The position numbers were made by a program, and so were the translations under genes. From Verrucomicrobiota bacterium (lineage in GTDB: Bacteria; Verrucomicrobiota; Verrucomicrobiia; Limisphaerales; Fontisphaeraceae), in the NCBI GenBank assembly GCA_037139415.1, contig JBAXGN010000033.1:1-49497 (forward strand): a stretch of DNA of 49,497 nucleotides, in the 5' to 3' direction. Of the stretch, positions 2,746 to 11,840 are shown piece by piece. Each line of letters starts with the position of its first letter. Within the stretch, counting starts at the first letter, position 1. The notes beneath the pieces are model-generated. The model was given only the letters and a program-made list of their open reading frames with translations, was not told where the DNA came from and made no database searches.

Positions 2746-4008
2746 TCAGTCGTGCAGGTTGAATACGGTCTTGAAGTTGCCGGGCCGGTCGGTGCGGAAG
2801 GCGTGCTCGATGGCGGCGCGGTAGTCGGCCAGGGGGAATTGGCGGCTGACGAGGGGCTTGAGCACCCCCTGCCCGGCGCGCAGGTATTCCAGCGCGAGTT
2901 CGATGGTCTTGAGGCGGCGGCCGTCGGGCAGGTTTTCGTAGGCGTAGGCGTAGGTGCTCTGGTGGTGGAGTTCCTTGTACCAGAGGCTCGTCCAATCCAC
3001 GCCGCTGGGCACGCCCGGCATGCCCACCAGCAGGATCATGCCGCCGGGGCGGGCCAGGCGCATGGCATCGTCGAGGGTGGCGCTCAGGCCGACGCAATCC
3101 ACGACGACATCCACGCCGCCGAGGACGACGGGTTTGCCGAGTTCGGGCTGGTAGATGCCGCCGGAGCCGCGCAGGTCGCCGGTTTGTTCGAGGACCCATT
3201 GGTAGGTCTCGCGCGGGCCGCGCAGGCCAAAGCAGAGGTCGGCGCCCAGGGTGCGGGCCATCTCCGCCTGGTGCGGGAATCGGGCGGTCGCCAGGATGCG
3301 CCCGCGCCCGCCGGCCATGCGGTAGGCGTGGATGAGCAGGAGGCCGATGGTGCCGCAGCCCATGACGAGCAGGGTCTGGTCTTCCTGGCGCGGGAGTTTG
3401 AGCGCGGCGTGCAGGGAGCAGGCCAGCGGTTCGGCCAGCACGGCTTCCTCATCGCTCAGCCCCTCCGGCACGGCCTGCAATTGGGTGTGATGAGCCACGA
3501 CGCTGGCGCGGCTCCAGCCGCCGCCGGTGCCGGCGCAAAAGCCGGTCTGGAACCCGGCGGTCATGCTGCCTTTGAGGATGTTCTCGCAGTTGGCGTATTG
3601 CCCGCGCGCGCACGGGCGGCAGAGCGGCTTCATCCCGCGCACGGCGCAGCCCAGCGCCGGTTCCAGCACGACGGTCCGGCCCGGCTTCCATTGGGCGGGG
3701 ACGTCGGGCCCGGCCTCGACGATTTCGGCGACCAGCTCGTGCCCGAGCACGAACGGGGTGGAGACGAAGGGGGAAAAGTAGGGGGTGCCCTTGCAGGCGA
3801 TGGTGGAGAGGTCCGAGCCGCAGATGCCGCTGAGGCGCGGTTGCAGGCGGACCCATTCACCGTTGGGCAGCGGCGGCGGCGCGAGCCGGGTGAGCCGGAT
3901 GCAGGAGAGCGCGCCCGTGACTACCGAGGGCCAGCGGCCGGAGGTGTTGCGCACCAGCAGCCAGCGCGGCACGGAACGGATGTATTGAACGGAATCGGCT
4001 AGGTCCAT
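2746..4008 (-). CDS. Zinc-dependent medium-chain alcohol dehydrogenase
   Basis: This 420-residue protein belongs to the medium-chain, zinc-dependent alcohol dehydrogenase superfamily, which oxidises alcohols or reduces carbonyls with NAD(P). Catalytic-zinc ligands are visible as Cys63 in GICGSD and the GHE motif at His90-Glu91. Four cysteines at 121, 130, 133 and 141 fit a structural zinc lobe. The nucleotide-binding glycine motif is VMGCGTIGLL. The frame is open to 4089, but the ATG at 4008 is preferred: the extension is Arg/Pro-rich, and this start overlaps the HAD stop (3999-4001) by 10 bases. The length is above the usual 340-380 residues because of an N-terminal extension and an insert after the cysteine cluster. 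The substrate is unknown; its position suggests a long-chain alcohol, aldehyde or a glycerol-type compound. Confidence 0.85.
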   Translation of the reverse strand: MDLADSVQYIRSVPRWLLVRNTSGRWPSVVTGALSCIRLTRLAPPPLPNGEWVRLQPRLSGICGSDLSTIACKGTPYFSPFVSTPFVLGHELVAEIVEAGPDVPAQWKPGRTVVLEPALGCAVRGMKPLCRPCARGQYANCENILKGSMTAGFQTGFCAGTGGGWSRASVVAHHTQLQAVPEGLSDEEAVLAEPLACSLHAALKLPRQEDQTLLVMGCGTIGLLLIHAYRMAGGRGRILATARFPHQAEMARTLGADLCFGLRGPRETYQWVLEQTGDLRGSGGIYQPELGKPVVLGGVDVVVDCVGLSATLDDAMRLARPGGMILLVGMPGVPSGVDWTSLWYKELHHQSTYAYAYENLPDGRRLKTIELALEYLRAGQGVLKPLVSRQFPLADYRAAIEHAFRTDRPGNFKTVFNLHD

Positions 4009-4709
4009 GTTTCGGTTTTCCAATTGCGTTGCGCGGCGACGCGCAGCAGGCGGCGGTCCGGGTTCACGGCCACGGGATTCCCGGCGCATTCCATCATGGC
4101 CAGGTCGCCAATCGCATCGCCCAGGGCAAACGACTGGGCCAGGTCCATGCCGTTGGCCCGGGCGTGCTGGCGCACGGCGGCGGCCTTTTGCGCGCCGGTG
4201 AACGGCTCGCCTTGCAGGCGGCCGGTGAAGCAGCCGTCCTGTTCTTCAAGGGCCGGGGCGAGGCAGTCCGCCTGGAAATCGCGGGCCATCGGTTCCATGA
4301 ACAGATCGAGGCCGCCGGTGACGAGCACGAGTTTGACGCCCTCGCTTTGCCGCGCGCGAATCCAATCCAGCGCGTGGGGGAACAGCTTGGGCTTGATGCG
4401 TTGCTGGTAATAATCCGAGGCCAAGCTGCGGACCTTGGCCACGGAGACGCCGCGATAGTTGGAGTAGATGGCGACGTTGGAGGCGCGGCGGCTGAATTGA
4501 TCCACGCACCACCACCAGGGAGCGCGCCCGGCCAGGCTGGCCAGCCAGAGCCAATTCCACGGCGGCGCGAGCGTGTGTACCTTCATCCAGACAAGCGGCG
4601 TGACGATGGTGGTATCCGTCAAGGTCCCGTCCACATCGCAATACGCGGCGCGGTACACGGAAGAAGAGGATGCATTCACAGCCATAAAAGACGTTGCCGG
4701 GCTTGCCAT
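3999..4709 (-). CDS. HAD-superfamily phosphatase (SerB-like, subfamily IB)
   Basis: This 236-residue HAD hydrolase is predicted to dephosphorylate a small phosphoester or phospholipid intermediate. Motif I is CDVDGTLTDT, with the nucleophile Asp25 and acid/base Asp27. Motif II is LVLVTGGLD. A lysine follows in TGAQKAAAV, and motif III is ALGDAIGDLAMM. The Trp-rich segment WNWLWLASLAGRAPWWW between motifs I and II is hydrophobic and could touch the membrane or a lipid substrate. The ATG at 4709 shares its A with the TGA of the upstream megasynthase (1-base overlap), implying translational coupling. The open frame extends upstream to 4916, but that part lies inside the acyltransferase coding region. 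A role next to a PlsC-type domain, such as making a diacyl- or alkylacylglycerol, is inference. Confidence 0.85.
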   Translation of the reverse strand: MASPATSFMAVNASSSSVYRAAYCDVDGTLTDTTIVTPLVWMKVHTLAPPWNWLWLASLAGRAPWWWCVDQFSRRASNVAIYSNYRGVSVAKVRSLASDYYQQRIKPKLFPHALDWIRARQSEGVKLVLVTGGLDLFMEPMARDFQADCLAPALEEQDGCFTGRLQGEPFTGAQKAAAVRQHARANGMDLAQSFALGDAIGDLAMMECAGNPVAVNPDRRLLRVAAQRNWKTETWT

Positions 4710-7700
4710 CAGCGGATGGGCGGCAAGTCCGCCAAAGCTTCCACCCGTTCGCGCAGCAACGCGGCTGAACGGCGGTAGAGTTCGGAAGCCGCGACCGTCT
4801 CCCGCGCCGACTTGAGCGGCGCAAGGTCCACCGGGGGACCAATCCGTACTTCCACCCGCCCTGGACGCGGAAAACGCCGTCCTTTGGGCCATGCAGCATA
4901 GGTGCCCTGCAACCACACCGGCACCAACGGCACATCCAATTCCATCGCCAGCACGCCGATGCCCGGCTTGAACGGCTGTAATTCGCCGGTGATGGTGCGC
5001 GTGCCTTCCGGGAAGATCAATAAGGCGCGCCCGCTATCCAAGACCGTCTTGCACACGGCCAGGCTTTCCGCCGCGTTCGCTTCGCGGTCCAGCGGCAGCG
5101 CGTTCAGGAAGGTGGTGAAGAACCAGGCTTTGATGCTGGAGTCGAAGAAATAGTCCTTGGCCGCCATGGCGTGCAGCTTCTCGGCGTGCGGCCCGAGCAC
5201 CTTGCGGATGGCGGGCAAATCCAGGTGGCTGGAGTGGTTGGCGACGATGATGTAGGGGCCGGTCTTGGGCAGGTTTTCGAGCCCGCCGCCGCGCACCCGC
5301 ACGTGAACATCCATGACCAAGTTGAGGACGGTGTCCCAGGACTTGCGCAATACACGGCGCCCGGCCGTTTGCTGCATGCCCGCCTCCAACACGTCCTTCC
5401 GCACATGGGCGCGCTCCCACAGGGCACGTCGGCGTTGCGATTTTGTCTTCAACGCATCACTGCCTACGGCCTCCTTGACGAGCGCGGTGACGTCCTGCAC
5501 CGTGAAAATACGTGCCTCAGCCTCGCCGGGGAACGTGACGCCAAAACGGACTTCGATCATTTGCAGCAAGTCCACGCGCCCGATGGAATCAATGCCCAGG
5601 TCCATCTGCAACTTGTGCGCGGGCGAGATATCGGCGGGAGCAAGGTTGCCGGCCACCCGAGCCACGAGGCGTGCGACTTCAATCTCCACCGCGTTTAAGT
5701 CTGTAATCACCTCGGGGGCAGCTACCGTTAAAGCGGCGGTGGCGGGGGCGGTGAATTTCTCCACGACTGCACCGGTATAACGCGCCCGGACTTTGCCGCG
5801 CTGCACCTTGAGCGTGGACGTCTTCGGCAACTCTTCGGTTTGAAATTCGACGCGGGCAATCCGCTGGTGGCTTGGCAAATCCCGAGTGCGATGCGCGACT
5901 TCGGCAACGATGTTTTCCTTGTTTGCCCCGGCATCCAACACCAGCACGGCGGTCACCTCTTCCCCCTGGCCGTTGCGTCCCGGCAAGCCGACGACGCATA
6001 GTTCCTTCACGCCAGAAAGGTTCTTGAGATAATACTCCACATCATCCGGATACACGTTCTTGCCTGCACTGGTGACAATAATATCCTTGAGCCGTCCGGT
6101 AATGTGCAAGTAGCCCTCGTGGTCCAGGCGCCCGAGGTCGCCGGTCTTGAACCAGCCGTTTTCCATGACCGCCGCCGTGGCGGCGGGATTGCGCCAATAC
6201 CCGTGCATGATCGAGGGACCGCGCGCGAGCACCTCGCCGACGTTTTCCTCGTCGCCCAGGTTCTGAATGCTGATCTCCATGCCGGGAATCACTGAGCCAA
6301 CCGAGCCGGCCTTGGCTCCCACCATGGGATTGACGGTAAGCACCGGCGACGTTTCCGTAAGGCCGTAGCCTTCGCAGATGGTGATGCCGAACCGGCGGAA
6401 AAAATGAAATATTTCCGGATCCAACGCCGCCCCGCCGGAAACAAACGCACGCACATGACCGCCGAAGGCATCATGCACTTTGCGAAACATTTTCGGGCGC
6501 ATCGTGTTGCACCCCACGACTTCGCCAAGCAGGCAGGCCATCTCCCCCGCCTCCAGCGCCACCCGTCCCTTCACCCCCGCTTGCTCAATGCGTAGGCGGA
6601 TGCCATCCATGAACAGCTTGAAGAGGCGCGGGACGCCGATCATCACCGTGATTTCATTCAGCTTCATGGTGTCCAGGATTTCCTGGCCGCGCAGCACCTC
6701 GAGGTGATGCACGGTGGAACCGCCATACATCGGAATAAGGAAACCCGCCGTGAACTCAAACGCATGATGCATGGGCAGGACCGAGAGAAAACGATCACTC
6801 TCCAGCGGTTCGAGCACTTCCGCCACCGCCATGGCGTTGGCAATGAAGTTGGAGTGATGCAGCATTACCCCCTTGGGATCGAGGGTGGTCCCGCTGGTGA
6901 ACAGGATCGAAGCCAGGGTCTCCGCCGATGGTTCCCGCAATGTTCGGTTCGCAACGTCCGCGGCAGTGCCGGGCACCGGCCACTTCTGGCCATCAAACGG
7001 GGTTAATCCCGCGAGCAGATTCAGGCATGGCGGCAGACCGTTCCCTTGCCCCAGATGTCCCGCTCCCTGCTTGAAAAGATTAGGTGAAATGAGGATCGCC
7101 TTAGCCTCGGTGAACTTGAGAATACGCGCGATCTCGGCGGGTGGCATGGTGCGATCCAATGGCACCACCGTGGCTCCGGCACGGGAAACCGACAAATAGC
7201 CGAGCGCCCATTCTGGGCAGTTTTCACCCAGCAACGCCACACGATCCCCGGCGTGCAGATTCAATCGCGCTGCCAGCAGTCTGGCCTGATCTGTGGCACG
7301 ATCATACATTTCCGCGTAGCTCAACCGCACATGAGCGGGCCCATTCTCGGGATTGGAACGCCGAATCTCAGCCATCGGCTTGTTTCCAAATCGTTCCTTG
7401 CCGCGCAACGCCAGTTCCACAATGGTTTGCGGTACACCCCGCACACTCACAATGGCACGCCGCTTTTGTCCCGCCTCCTGCTCTTCCTCCAGCAACTTGC
7501 CCTGACCGGCCCCAGTGCGCGGCACCTCTTCCATGCGCAGGATATTCCGCTTGAGACCGGGAATATGCACATCCTGCAAATAATTGCGCCAATGGAACCG
7601 GCGGGGGTCAAAATTGAATGCCTCGCGTTCCTCAGGCACCAACGACTGCAGCAGTTCGGCGGCGTGTTCGGTTTCAAACCGGCAATCCAGATTCACATAC

Positions 7701-9094
7701 GGTCCGTAAATATCCACGTAATAGATCAACTGCTCAATCTTGGAGATAATATTCTTCAAGCGAGGCCGCCACTTGCGGGAGCCGGGAACGGGGACGCGAT
7801 TGACAATGGCCAGCGCCAGTTTGGCCGGGCGTAAATAACGGTTCAGCATCATGCGCCGATAATCGGGCACGCTGCGAAACTTCCATTCCCCAAGGATAAT
7901 GGGCTTGCCGGCACGATCCGTGAACGGGTGTTTAACAAAGTAATCCCGGACGTTTTCGTAAAGGCTTTCAAACCAAAGCGGATTCTTGCTGGAACTGGCA
8001 ACCGTGAACAGATCGAAGCCACCCGGTATCCGGGCGATATGCGCGCTGGCGGCGAGGATACCATTTACCACGAAATCCGCCGGGATAATGTCCAACACGA
8101 TCTTAAGACTGGCGGGAAAATCGGGCAACCGCCCTTTGCCAAAGCCGATGATGATCGGGTCCGCCATGCGCAAACCATCCAGCCAGCCAGGTTCTGGCTC
8201 GCGCAGCGAGGATTCGATGATGGAAGGGCGTACGATGACCGTCGGGATACGGCCATGATTCTGGTAAATCAACTGTTCGCCGAGGAACTTGGTGAACGTA
8301 TAAGTGTCATTCCAGCCAAACTGCTGAGAACGTTTCATGCCGGCGACCACCAAGCGGGCATTGAGCAAATCGCGCGATTCATCGCTCTTGACCTCCCATC
8401 CCTGGCGTTTGATTTCCTGCTGGCACTCGGCTTTGACTTCCTCGACCAACCGGTTCAAGTACGCAATTTCCTCGACGACCTCAAAGCGCTCCGGGCGTGG
8501 TGAGCCAGGGGGCATTTGTGCGTGGATGGCCTCCAATGGGGTGAGCAATTTTTCCGGCACATTGCCGGTTCGCATACCACTTACATACGCGGTGGAGACG
8601 TGAACGTAGATGGCATTGGCTGCCCTGGCCAATTCCAGGAGCCGCATGGGGCCCATGGTATTCAGGCTTAACGCCAAATCCAGCCGCTCATCAAATACCA
8701 CCGTGGCCGCACTGTTAATGATGACGTGAATCTTCCCGGCCAACTCGGCATAGGCCTTTTCATCGAGCCCCAGTCGCTCCATGGTCAGGTCGCCCGTGAT
8801 GCACGTGATCTTCTCTTCACAAAAACGCTCAAAATCTTCGCCGAACTTCTCGCGCAGCCGGCCAAAAGCACTATTGCGCAGGATTTCCTCATGCAACCGT
8901 TCACGCGCGTCCACGCGTGAACCGTCAGGCTTGAGGCGCGGGCGGATAAGCAGGTGGATGCCGCCAATATCCGGCAGGTCATGGAGCACTTTTTCCATGA
9001 CAGCCTTGGCCAAAAAGCCGGTCGAGCCGGTGAGCAATACATGCTTGCCGGCAAAAAATCGGCGAATGGATAGCGGTTCGTTAATGTTGTTCAC
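4709..9094 (-). CDS. Four-domain lipid megasynthase: acyl reductase-AMP ligase-ACP-PlsC
   Basis: This 1461-residue protein fuses four lipid-enzyme domains. Residues about 10-530 form a fatty acyl reductase: nucleotide loop LLTGSTGFLAK, active-site YTFTK (about residue 262), and a FAR-type C-terminal part with NRYLRPAKLALAIVNRVP. Residues about 560-1100 are an acyl-AMP ligase, with P-loop ILFTSGTTLDPKGVM and the WFKTGDLG motif. Residues about 1140-1210 are an acyl carrier domain with the phosphopantetheine serine in GIDSIGRVDL. Residues about 1270-1461 are a PlsC-type acyltransferase with NHSSHLD (HX4D) and FPEGTR. The start is GTG at 9094; an in-frame TGA lies two codons upstream. The order recalls ElbD of Myxococcus xanthus, which makes ether lipids. 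The likely chemistry is to activate a fatty acid, hold it on the carrier, reduce it to an alcohol and acylate a glycerophosphate. Confidence 0.9.
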   Translation of the reverse strand: MNNINEPLSIRRFFAGKHVLLTGSTGFLAKAVMEKVLHDLPDIGGIHLLIRPRLKPDGSRVDARERLHEEILRNSAFGRLREKFGEDFERFCEEKITCITGDLTMERLGLDEKAYAELAGKIHVIINSAATVVFDERLDLALSLNTMGPMRLLELARAANAIYVHVSTAYVSGMRTGNVPEKLLTPLEAIHAQMPPGSPRPERFEVVEEIAYLNRLVEEVKAECQQEIKRQGWEVKSDESRDLLNARLVVAGMKRSQQFGWNDTYTFTKFLGEQLIYQNHGRIPTVIVRPSIIESSLREPEPGWLDGLRMADPIIIGFGKGRLPDFPASLKIVLDIIPADFVVNGILAASAHIARIPGGFDLFTVASSSKNPLWFESLYENVRDYFVKHPFTDRAGKPIILGEWKFRSVPDYRRMMLNRYLRPAKLALAIVNRVPVPGSRKWRPRLKNIISKIEQLIYYVDIYGPYVNLDCRFETEHAAELLQSLVPEEREAFNFDPRRFHWRNYLQDVHIPGLKRNILRMEEVPRTGAGQGKLLEEEQEAGQKRRAIVSVRGVPQTIVELALRGKERFGNKPMAEIRRSNPENGPAHVRLSYAEMYDRATDQARLLAARLNLHAGDRVALLGENCPEWALGYLSVSRAGATVVPLDRTMPPAEIARILKFTEAKAILISPNLFKQGAGHLGQGNGLPPCLNLLAGLTPFDGQKWPVPGTAADVANRTLREPSAETLASILFTSGTTLDPKGVMLHHSNFIANAMAVAEVLEPLESDRFLSVLPMHHAFEFTAGFLIPMYGGSTVHHLEVLRGQEILDTMKLNEITVMIGVPRLFKLFMDGIRLRIEQAGVKGRVALEAGEMACLLGEVVGCNTMRPKMFRKVHDAFGGHVRAFVSGGAALDPEIFHFFRRFGITICEGYGLTETSPVLTVNPMVGAKAGSVGSVIPGMEISIQNLGDEENVGEVLARGPSIMHGYWRNPAATAAVMENGWFKTGDLGRLDHEGYLHITGRLKDIIVTSAGKNVYPDDVEYYLKNLSGVKELCVVGLPGRNGQGEEVTAVLVLDAGANKENIVAEVAHRTRDLPSHQRIARVEFQTEELPKTSTLKVQRGKVRARYTGAVVEKFTAPATAALTVAAPEVITDLNAVEIEVARLVARVAGNLAPADISPAHKLQMDLGIDSIGRVDLLQMIEVRFGVTFPGEAEARIFTVQDVTALVKEAVGSDALKTKSQRRRALWERAHVRKDVLEAGMQQTAGRRVLRKSWDTVLNLVMDVHVRVRGGGLENLPKTGPYIIVANHSSHLDLPAIRKVLGPHAEKLHAMAAKDYFFDSSIKAWFFTTFLNALPLDREANAAESLAVCKTVLDSGRALLIFPEGTRTITGELQPFKPGIGVLAMELDVPLVPVWLQGTYAAWPKGRRFPRPGRVEVRIGPPVDLAPLKSARETVAASELYRRSAALLRERVEALADLPPIR

Positions 9095-9219: not shown

Positions 9220-9897
9220 TCACAGGGTTGCGTCCAAGCTGGCGCGGAAGCGACGACACGCCACAGTAATATCGTCGGCGTTCAAGATGGCCGAAACGAC
9301 GCAGATTCGACGCGCTCCGGCAGCCAGAACTTCGGGCAGATTGGTCAATTGAATGCCGCCGATGGCAAACCATGGAATGGGAACCTGCTTGGCCGCCCAA
9401 CGTACATAATCCAACGTCACTGGTTTCGCGGCAGGCTTGGTGCCGGTGGCGTAAACCGGACCAATGGCGATATAATCCGGTGCGGCCTGCAAGGCGCGGA
9501 GCGCCTGGTCCGGCTGATGGGTACTCAAGCCCAGCCTAAAATGTGAGGGGGAAGGCAATGCTTGAAGTAAGTCATGTTTGTGCCGGTAGCCGGTATCGAA
9601 GAAATCTTCCTGTCCCAGATGGCAGCACTCGGCACCCAATTCGGCGGCGAGCTGAGGGTAGTCGTTGATGACCAGGGGCACACCGGCAGCGCGGGTTACC
9701 GGCAGAATTGCCTCCGCCAACCGGCGCACCTGGTCTGCCGTTTCATTCTTTGCCCGCAATTGGATGATATCCGAGCCGCCCTCGCATAATTGCCGGGCAA
9801 CGTCCACCGGAGTGCGACCATGCAGAAAGGCCGTATCCACAAAGGTGTAGAGATGACATTCGTGAATGGCTTTCATGAGCGCAAGGGAGGTGGCCAT
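9220..9897 (-). CDS. thiE: Thiamine-phosphate synthase ThiE
   Basis: This 225-residue protein is a TIM-barrel thiamine-phosphate synthase, which joins HMP pyrophosphate and thiazole phosphate to give thiamine phosphate in the cytoplasm. Family features visible are GGSDIIQLRAKN near residues 40-51, VPLVINDYPQLAAELGAEC, the CHLGQEDF segment, and YIAIGPVYATGTKP, which binds phosphate. The final WFAIGGIQLTNLPEVLAAGA and VVSAIL complete the barrel. The annotated start is ATG 9897, which follows GGGGGA directly; a second in-frame ATG at 9876 (MKAIHECHLYTF) is also plausible. The gene begins 12 bases after the accC stop, so it is probably the last member of the accB-accC transcript. No THI-box riboswitch was recognised upstream. 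Confidence 0.9.
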   Translation of the reverse strand: MATSLALMKAIHECHLYTFVDTAFLHGRTPVDVARQLCEGGSDIIQLRAKNETADQVRRLAEAILPVTRAAGVPLVINDYPQLAAELGAECCHLGQEDFFDTGYRHKHDLLQALPSPSHFRLGLSTHQPDQALRALQAAPDYIAIGPVYATGTKPAAKPVTLDYVRWAAKQVPIPWFAIGGIQLTNLPEVLAAGARRICVVSAILNADDITVACRRFRASLDATL

Positions 9898-9909
9898 TCC
9901 CCCATCACT

Positions 9910-11286
9910 TCAGGCTTGTTCTTCCAACAAGTCCCGACGGGCGCCATTCAGCAGTTGCTCAATGAAACTGGTGGTATAAACCCCGCGACGGAAATTCGGA
10001 TCCTGCAAAATAGCCTGCTCAAAGGGGATCGTCGTCTTGATGCCGGTAATCATGAATTCACTTAGGGCACGGCTCATCCGATCCATGGCTTCACGGCGGT
10101 CCTTGCCGTAAGTAATCAGTTTACCGATCATGGAATCATAATGCGGCGGGATCGTATAGCCGGCATAAGCATGACTATCCAAACGGACCCCGCGTCCACC
10201 CGGAGAATAGTACATTTCAATCCGGCCCGGAGAAGGACGGAAGTCATCAAACGGGTCCTCGGCATTAATGCGGCATTCGATCGAATGACCATGCATGGTC
10301 ACGTCCGAAATTTTCAGCGGCTCACCCAAGGCCAGCAAAATTTGCTGTCGAACGAGATCCACGCCCGTGACTTCCTCGGTAATCGGGTGTTCCACCTGGA
10401 TGCGTTTATTAACCTCCAGAAAGTAAAAACTGCCATCCTCCGCCACCACGAATTCAACCGTGCCAGCATTGGTATAACCAGCAGCCTCCCCAATCTTGAT
10501 GGCGGCTTTGCAGAGTTTTTTCCGTAAATCCTTAAACTTATTTTCGATAAAAGGGGAAGGGGTTTCCTCAATTAATTTCTGGTTACGCCGTTGAATGGAA
10601 CAATCCCGCTCTCCCAGATGAATCACTTTACCTCGGTTATCGCCCAAAATCTGAATCTCAATATGGCGGGGATTATCAATAAACTTCTCAATATAGACAC
10701 CGCCATTGCCAAAAGCTTTTTCCGCCTCCACTTTCGCCGTGTGAAACCCTTTGATCAAGGTCATGTCATTGTGGACCAACCGCATGCCACGTCCGCCTCC
10801 GCCAGCGATGGCCTTGATCAGAACCGGGTAGCCGATCTTCTGCGCAATATGAATTGCCTCTTGCTCCGTTTCCACCAAACCTTCTGATCCAGGCGGAATT
10901 GGAACCCCAACCTTTTTCGCCAATGCCCGGCTTACCGCCTTATCGCTCAAGGCATTAAGTGCTTTTGAACTGGGGCCGATAAACCGGATATTGCAGTTTT
11001 CGCAGACATCCGCAAAGTGTGCATTTTCAGATAAAAATCCATAACCGGGGTGAATGGCATCCACATCGGTAATTTCAGCGGCGGAAATAAGGCGGTCTAC
11101 GCGCAAATAACTCTCACTGGAAGCACCTTTGCCAATGCAGATCGCCTCGTCCGCAAGTTGCACATGCATGGAGTTGGCGTCTGGTTCGGAATAGACCGCG
11201 ACCGTGCGCACGTTCAGTTCTTTGCAGGCGCGAATGATGCGGACCGCAATTTCACCGCGATTGGCGATTAAAATCTTCTCAAACAT
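9910..11286 (-). CDS. accC: Acetyl-CoA carboxylase, biotin carboxylase subunit AccC
   Basis: This 458-residue protein is the biotin carboxylase of acetyl-CoA carboxylase; it carboxylates the biotin on AccB with ATP and bicarbonate, the first step of fatty acid synthesis. The family start [20 protein letters not shown] is intact. The ATP-grasp glycine loop is [10 protein letters not shown] (about residue 163) and the catalytic segment is [27 protein letters not shown] and the C-terminal [18 protein letters not shown] also match the family. The length fits E. coli AccC (449). It sits 80 bases downstream of accB and 12 bases upstream of thiE on the same strand. Genes for the carboxyltransferase subunits (accA, accD) are not in the window. 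Confidence 0.96.
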
Positions 11287-11366
11287 GATGTGAAAGGCAT
11301 TACTACGCTACAGCCAATCCCCAGTCCAATACCGAATGGAATGGCAAACGACTTATGATAAACGAT

Positions 11367-11840
11367 TTATAAAGGGCGAATCTTAAACAGCGGTTGCCCG
11401 AATTCAACCGGCTTGGAATTCTCCACCAGCACGGCGGTGATCACTCCGCGCACTTCCGCCTTAATCTCATTCATAACCTTCATGGCCTCAATAATGCACA
11501 CGACGGTGTCAGGGTTGACTTCGGAGCCGATATCCACGTAAGAAGAGGACTCTGGTGAAGGAGCACGATATAGGGTGCCAATCATCGGCGATTTGATTTC
11601 TGTTTCATTGGCATTAGCTGCTCCCGATGCGGGAGCCGAGGTGGCAGGTGAAGCCAGCGGAGCTACATTCTGAGGAGCCGGTGCATAAACCGTCATTCCC
11701 TGCCCGTCATCCATGACCGTCGTCCCCCCATTGCCTCGTTTCAGTTTAATTTTAAATTCCTGACCTTTTTCCAACTCGAACTCGCTAATTGAGTTCTTTT
11801 TCATCAGGTCAATAATTGCTTTTATGTCTTTTAGGTCCAC
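11367..11840 (-). CDS. accB: Biotin carboxyl carrier protein AccB
   Basis: This 157-residue protein is the biotin carboxyl carrier of acetyl-CoA carboxylase. The N-terminal helix (DLKDIKAIIDLMKKN) is followed by an Ala/Pro-rich linker at residues about 52-78. The C-terminal biotinyl domain carries EAMKVMNEI with biotin-accepting Lys121; IKSPMIGTLYRAPSPES is the typical lead-in. The start is GTG at 11840, supported by a strong GGAGGG 4 bases upstream (11845-11850). The gene heads the accB-accC-thiE unit and is preceded by a 301-base gap to aroQ containing a small hairpin, where a promoter would be expected. Confidence 0.95.
   Translation of the reverse strand: MDLKDIKAIIDLMKKNSISEFELEKGQEFKIKLKRGNGGTTVMDDGQGMTVYAPAPQNVAPLASPATSAPASGAANANETEIKSPMIGTLYRAPSPESSSYVDIGSEVNPDTVVCIIEAMKVMNEIKAEVRGVITAVLVENSKPVEFGQPLFKIRPL

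Follow-up and report, generated by a model that had tools for sequence, protein, structure and literature searches.

A window of 49,497 nucleotides from a Verrucomicrobiota bacterium (assembly GCA_037139415.1, contig JBAXGN010000033.1) encodes an ElbD-type megaenzyme (1461 aa; 4709..9094, minus strand; ORF, Pfam and homologues) that joins a fatty acyl reductase (FAR), an acyl ligase, a carrier and a PlsC-type acyltransferase in one protein, and that heads a run of three overlapping co-directional genes, in which it is followed by a HAD-IB phosphatase (HAD) and a Zn-dependent medium-chain dehydrogenase (MDR). Taking into account the domains, the gene overlaps, and the co-occurrence and linkage of the partners, all of which are observed, we consider it rather probable that these genes belong to a dispersed pathway shared with a homologue of the racemase LarA (LarAH) and, in this genome, a lipid kinase, and that this pathway most probably yields an alkyl ether glycerolipid, formed without the FAD-linked alkyl-DHAP synthase AGPS. 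Joint action of the partners in one pathway is a firmer claim than the order of the steps or the ether product, both of which we infer. What is new here is the partner set of the four-domain enzyme (HAD, LarAH, MDR and kinase), rather than the ElbD homologue as such.

The megaenzyme gene is a single open reading frame (ORF) of 1461 codons, read from 9094 down to 4709 with a GTG start in the ORF scan of the window; a plus-strand reading of the same interval was rejected on account of its many stops. Six Pfam matches, all on the minus strand and all exceeding their own cut-offs, make up the protein: a NAD_binding_4 fatty acyl reductase (residues 21-346, E 2.8e-62; 8057..9034), the Sterile domain found at the FAR C-terminus (residues 442-520, E 7.6e-12; 7535..7771), the AMP-binding core of an acyl ligase (residues 588-967, E 9.7e-74; 6194..7333), AMP-binding_C (residues 1019-1094, E 2e-6; 5813..6040), a PP-binding carrier (residues 1140-1192, E 8.4e-7; 5519..5677, with Ser1170 located in GIDSIG by alignment) and a PlsC-type Acyltransferase (residues 1268-1395, E 5e-28; 4910..5293). 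The sequence-only reading had proposed these four domains in this order, without giving the strand, and Pfam bears this out; the motifs it had quoted are present and invariant save for a few single residues (S/A in GSTGFLAK, F/Y in YTFTK, S/C in NHSSHLD and the LD of SGTTLDPKG) in an alignment of five full-length homologues (58-69% identity to the window protein), across which the key motifs of all four activities are conserved. Its term 'acyl-AMP ligase' is supported in the broad sense of an acyl ligase rather than the narrow one of a fatty acyl-AMP ligase (FAAL), given that this part of the megaenzyme matches long-chain acyl-CoA ligase models in general, and of the ElbD-like layout that it proposed, the domain content stands and is joined by a HAD gene overlapping the megaenzyme end, while the ether-lipid product remains a prediction from sequence. 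A polyketide- or nonribosomal peptide-type (NRPS-type) thioester reductase was considered as well and is unlikely, because the reductase is N-terminal and followed by the Sterile domain of the FAR C-terminus, and does not lie C-terminally after a carrier; the best solved-structure match of the N-terminal part (residues 9-524) is a fatty acyl-CoA reductase (7eoz, E 1.4e-91).

The four-domain form is rare in comparison with its reductase-less relatives. Within the order, 5 of 146 genomes match the whole protein at E <=1e-100, all of them with four domains, and the four homologues besides the window's own are full length (58-70% identity). At the level of the phylum, 25 of 387 genomes match the whole-protein query at E <=1e-90; 24 of these strong matches start at query residue 571 or later, so that the reductase is not matched, the exception being the window's own genome. 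Scanning named genome contigs with the whole protein returned 63 loci, of which the full-length four-domain ones were found in two Verrucomicrobia(ota) metagenome-assembled genomes (MAGs; these loci coincide with those of G012 and G046), Planctomycetota MAG.432 (L052, genome G532; 55% identity) and 'Proteobacteria' Centralia_MAG_33 (L055; 32-35% identity). Partial matches were a truncated gene in an armatimonadete (L056, genome G534, a 1.4 Mb MAG) and the gene of a second Planctomycetota MAG (L053, genome G533). A search of the phylum to which L055's genome belongs gave matches at 1e-120 in 11 of 297 genomes (five four-domain, six reductase-less), and in the phylum around G542, which shares its handles with the phylum of G531, all matches (6 of 118 genomes) are reductase-less. 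The ligase, carrier and PlsC parts of such reductase-less, Aas-like proteins are 32-39% identical to those of the window protein. These counts agree in tendency with PMC9131029, according to which the FAR1 domain is missing from almost all ElbD-like homologues of other phyla. Neither the presence of a homologue in Verrucomicrobiota nor the four-domain form outside myxobacteria is new, since both are already in print: a Black Sea study reported ElbD homologues in 43 of 270 Verrucomicrobia MAGs (blastp E <1e-30, identity >=30%, a criterion that could also admit reductase-less proteins; PMC11868695), and four-domain elbD homologues flanked by hydrolases/dehydratases and oxidoreductases were described in sponge Acidobacteriota and Poribacteria (PMC9426513). 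The latter, in other phyla, have the same four domains and are likened to ours by description; the terms DUF2088, racemase and dehalogenase are all absent from the text of that paper.

The HAD-IB phosphatase (ElbB-like; 3999..4709, minus strand; Pfam PF12710, TIGR01490 above cut-off, and co-occurrence) follows the megaenzyme in the window, where its likely ATG shares its A with the megaenzyme stop (TGATG overlap). A HAD lies in the same cluster at 10 of the 12 four-domain regions, either immediately downstream of the megaenzyme (window, L043, L044, L052 and L053) or one gene upstream of it (L136-L140); in the two others (G011 and G068), a HAD 52-55% identical is located elsewhere in the genome. 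Genome-wide, it was recovered from 12 of the 13 four-domain genomes (all but G534, with its truncated megaenzyme gene), and in the order it occurs at 1e-15 in 5 of 146 genomes, which are exactly the five that possess the four-domain gene (two of them carrying the HAD elsewhere). By comparison, it was found in none of 26 reductase-less regions (5.5 to 19 kb each, a regional search in which a more distant copy could be missed). G534 was left out of this neighbourhood count, and the loci L051 and L054, which duplicate G012 and G046, were counted once.

The second partner, LarAH, follows the same distribution. The scanned copies, at L136, L209 and L210, fall within NCBIfam NF052592 ('NPN-dependent hydroxyacid isomerase, LarAH14/15/16 family', NPN being the nickel-pincer nucleotide), and an NF052592 search of 80 genomes detected a full-length LarAH in 12 of the 13 four-domain genomes (E 2.7e-207 to 2.8e-254; 529 aa in G068, 546 aa in L136), as opposed to none of 40 order genomes without the four-domain gene and none of 27 genomes with reductase-less relatives (one of which, G608, lies outside the 26 neighbourhood loci). 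The 40 order controls were the lowest-numbered of 141 gene-less genomes, some of them incomplete (57-98%). Nine of the 12 proteins exceed the curated 740-bit cut-off, which the other three (727.6, 726.1 and 689.6) do not reach, and weaker partial matches are common (49 of the 80 genomes have some match; best among controls 1.1e-25). In the window genome (G000), LarAH (E 2.1e-228) is found on contig C212, separate from that of the megaenzyme; the plasmids collection gave no match to LarAH. Alignment to a single ordinary LarA-like protein from the same genome shows that all 12 retain the His108 equivalent, the NPN lysine and the nickel-ligand histidine, and that all 12 lack the His174 segment (positions mapped by eye from motifs, residue roles after PMC12611868). 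Examined as a LarA racemase, the partner thus presents Lar_N and the lysine with one of the two catalytic histidines, the His174 equivalent being absent, and a two-base racemase activity is, judging from these residues, unlikely; a one-base hydride transfer on another substrate would be possible. Its two closest solved relatives are the LarA-like proteins 9q2u and 9q3j, which are probably the structures of the PMC12611868 study, whose title matches the molecule name. According to that paper, LarAH groups 14 and 15 lack this histidine, and homologues without it are called uncharacterised; LarAH14 of Frankia was inactive in assays (PMC7583248, Table 1). An active Phytophthora gluconate epimerase has been named LarAH15 (PMC11770544), probably under a different numbering, because its pocket is described like those of known epimerases.

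Further members become apparent from the linkages in which these genes occur. The MDR gene of the window (2746..4008, minus strand; Pfam and orthologues) has a likely start that overlaps the HAD gene end by 10 bases, and its orthologue in G011 and G068 (71-72% identical) follows the displaced HAD and is itself followed by LarAH; MDR also precedes LarAH in G012, G532 and G533. On C212 of the window genome, a DAGK/YegS-type lipid kinase begins 10 bases after LarAH, and the same succession in G012 and G046 brings the number of such genomes to three, while no kinase was found in the searched regions of G011, G068, G532 and G533. The overlapping pairs and triples (ElbD-HAD-MDR in the window, HAD-MDR-LarAH in G011 and G068, MDR-LarAH-kinase in G012, LarAH-kinase in G000 and G046, MDR-LarAH in G532 and G533, and HAD-LarAH-ElbD at all five four-domain loci of the Centralia_MAG_33 phylum, L136-L140) together join ElbD, HAD, MDR, LarAH and the kinase. 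Downstream of ElbD, L136-L140 additionally encode a DSP-type phosphatase and a CDP-alcohol phosphatidyltransferase (L136 copy scanned) resembling phosphatidylcholine synthase below the model cut-off, which perhaps perform head-group steps.

The comparison with Myxococcus xanthus suggests a possible counterpart for part of this partner set. ElbD of M. xanthus consists of an N-terminal FAR1-like domain followed by acyl-CoA synthetase (ACS), acyl carrier protein (ACP) and AGPAT-like domains, and is encoded in the operon elbA-elbE, in which elbB is a HAD, elbC has unknown function, and elbC and elbE flank elbD (PMC9131029). The window protein likewise unites FAR, ACS, ACP and AGPAT-like parts behind an N-terminal FAR, with a HAD gene in the cluster; it differs in that the HAD follows the megaenzyme and is succeeded by the Zn dehydrogenase. 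LarAH, the gene at the elbC position in L136-L140, is carried on another contig in the window genome. If the gene letters are read as giving the gene order, HAD-LarAH-ElbD of L136-L140 equals elbB-elbC-elbD, on the basis of which we predict by analogy that elbC of M. xanthus encodes a LarAH. According to PMC11770544, Myxococcota count among those taxa in which LarA homologues are most abundant, which fits this prediction without proving it. No paper joining LarA with ether lipids came up in keyword searches (for LarA together with plasmalogen, among the matches listed). Mutants of elbD were strongly reduced in ether lipids even though AGPS is present, with a minor role, and the effect of an elbB insertion was ascribed to polarity (PMC9131029).

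With regard to the AGPS pathway of MXAN_1674-1676 type, which also employs a FAR and an acyltransferase for ether lipids, we inspected PF02913 proteins, which occur in 12 of the 13 four-domain genomes. Loci were sorted against two proteins, one AGPS-like and the other GlcD-like, which classified 30 of 36 rows (the 6 unclassified include a weak G532 row of 24.4 bits and a 547-aa G805 row). AGPS-like proteins, the point of difference from the MXAN_1674-1676 type, are absent from the 16 classified loci of the 7 Verrucomicrobiota/Planctomycetota genomes, all 16 being GlcD-like, while four loci in the phylum of L055 are AGPS-like; both loci of the window genome are closer to GlcD, in a MAG that is 98% complete, so that a missed AGPS is possible. 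A plasmalogen is unlikely in the window genome, because a CarF match was not found in it. G532 has a CarF-family desaturase (L196:1432-2184, minus strand; PF10520, E 6.5e-53) alongside a four-domain ElbD, its sole NCBIfam match being plasmanylethanolamine desaturase (E 1.5e-56, 191.7 bits versus a cut-off of 500); true CarF outside myxobacteria is known only from Leptospira according to PMC9131029. Moreover, Streptomyces sp. NBC_01450 (NZ_CP109481.1) encodes FAR and HAD in one 960-aa ORF (L237:11395-14277, plus strand; the collection lists no feature at this place), with SDR, PlsC and AGPS (2uuu, E 1.6e-114) at a distance of about 1 to 4 kb. This set, which resembles the MXAN_1674-1676 type, is likely an actinobacterial ether-lipid cluster, and the ORF provides an independent FAR-HAD link in an ether-lipid setting.

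Combining these elements, the following sequence of steps can be envisaged. As would follow from the domain families, the ligase would load the internal carrier with a fatty acid, the reductase would turn part of the carrier-bound acyl into fatty alcohol, and the PlsC domain would transfer acyl to a glycerol-phosphate acceptor. From linkage and family, the HAD would remove the phosphate, the dehydrogenase and a hydride-transferring LarAH may work on the secondary alcohol/ketone of the glycerol part while the ether forms or close to that step, and the kinase would re-phosphorylate the alkyl(acyl)glycerol so that it can enter phospholipid synthesis. Such a model accounts for the presence of a phosphatase and a lipid kinase beside the enzyme, and for the possible lack of AGPS. 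More tentatively, and with some doubt on our part, the single-histidine LarAH (probably the elbC product) may apply nickel-pincer hydride chemistry to the glycerol backbone of an acyl/alkyl intermediate, constituting, with HAD, MDR and kinase, an AGPS-independent alkyl ether route.

Other explanations may be put forward for the same genes. The megaenzyme could sustain an ordinary ElbD pathway, with any ether bonds made by ElbD alone or by an unrecognised enzyme, and with HAD, MDR and LarAH as accessories or as parts of a co-inherited, separate carbohydrate/hydroxyacid pathway, a view that gains from the placement of LarAH and ElbD on different contigs in G000, from the occurrence of MDR and kinase in part of the genomes only, and from the observation that LarAHs of another single-histidine group adjoin glycolytic genes (PMC12611868). 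Since, in one genome after another, the presence of HAD and LarAH goes with that of the four-domain gene, also where they are unlinked, and since in another phylum LarAH adjoins ElbD with HAD one gene away, we regard it as unlikely. It is also conceivable that the megaenzyme yields fatty alcohol and acylglycerol for a neutral ester (a wax ester or an alcohol-bearing glycolipid) instead of an ether: a FAR with an acyltransferase could make wax-type esters, and the 16 classified PF02913 loci of the 7 Verrucomicrobiota/Planctomycetota genomes, none of them AGPS-like, would agree with this. Here, the acyltransferase, which is of the PlsC/LPLAT type with NHxxxxD and FPEGTR and not a wax synthase, the strongly reduced ether lipids of elbD mutants despite AGPS, and the FAR-HAD ORF near AGPS in Streptomyces all speak against this, and we consider a neutral ester decidedly improbable.

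The history of the four-domain form bears on a further alternative. In a 42-row tree of the ligase-carrier-acyltransferase part (from which G534 was left out), a 99/98 branch sets apart the 12 four-domain rows and, on the same side as these, some reductase-less rows, namely three acidobacterial ones, a chlamydial one and G605. A tree of the FAR part (without the partial reductase of G533 and with G534 included as L056) has long branches that meet, and it was not used for any claim of origin. On this evidence a single origin of the four-domain form is possible. The reductase might instead have been fused to the ligase-carrier-acyltransferase unit independently in PVC (Planctomycetes, Verrucomicrobia and Chlamydiae) and in the ElbD lineage, so that the window protein would work like ElbD and yet be convergent with it; as both groups have HAD and LarAH as partners, convergence would need to have brought these together twice, and we grant this scenario little likelihood. 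The divergence that speaks for it is one of several observations that weigh against our interpretation: the reductase parts of the window protein and of each of five other-phylum four-domain proteins are just 28.5-31.6% identical, and grouping the four-domain rows, which amounts to one change relative to the reductase-less rows, has a support of 69/36. Orthology with ElbD of M. xanthus is drawn from description and gene order rather than from sequence, and no elbE-type SDR was present among the eight window neighbours scanned. In the second Planctomycetota MAG (L053, genome G533), the match is partial; the megaenzyme gene is split over two contigs and interrupted in frame. The coincidence of HAD and the four-domain gene in the order would correspond to one chance in 5e8 if genomes were independent; as the genomes in the counts are related, such p-values assume more independence than there is. 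MDR is not supported as a general partner (it was encountered in 6 of 7 PVC genomes, in no other region searched, and is absent from two G046 regions), and MDR and kinase, both looked for in regions rather than genome-wide, are not universal partners. A CarF-family desaturase (PF10520) has no match in the window genome and is found in 1 of the 13 four-domain genomes (G532). The 25-kb Streptomyces FAR-HAD stretch has no LarAH match, and therefore FAR and HAD can occur without LarAH nearby. Lastly, cultured Pontiella had no detected ether-bound lipids, though Verrucomicrobial Pontiella MAGs carry ElbD homologues (PMC11868695), an observation that is also in favour of a neutral ester.

Around the three-gene run, the next co-directional gene after MDR matches Cons_hypoth95 (Pfam), a neighbour that we take to be RsmD-type and that is probably unrelated to the megaenzyme pathway. 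Upstream, in the same direction (window 9220-11840, minus strand), are TMP-TENI (ThiE-like), biotin carboxylase (AccC-like) and biotinyl domain proteins, the closest of them at a distance of 125 bases from the megaenzyme.

According to PMC9131029, the precise functions and mechanism of ElbD still raise many questions, and the partner set described here bears on how this enzyme makes ether lipids. The co-occurrence names concrete candidate partners for ElbD, namely HAD and LarAH, and in PVC also the Zn dehydrogenase. In the screening of environmental genomes for ether-lipid producers, HAD and LarAH may furthermore serve as markers that separate reductase-bearing ElbD from similar proteins without a reductase. 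The co-occurrence also offers a pathway for an unassigned group of nickel-cofactor enzymes, and the more tentative LarAH route, if true, would provide this group with its first function and ElbD with its missing partners.

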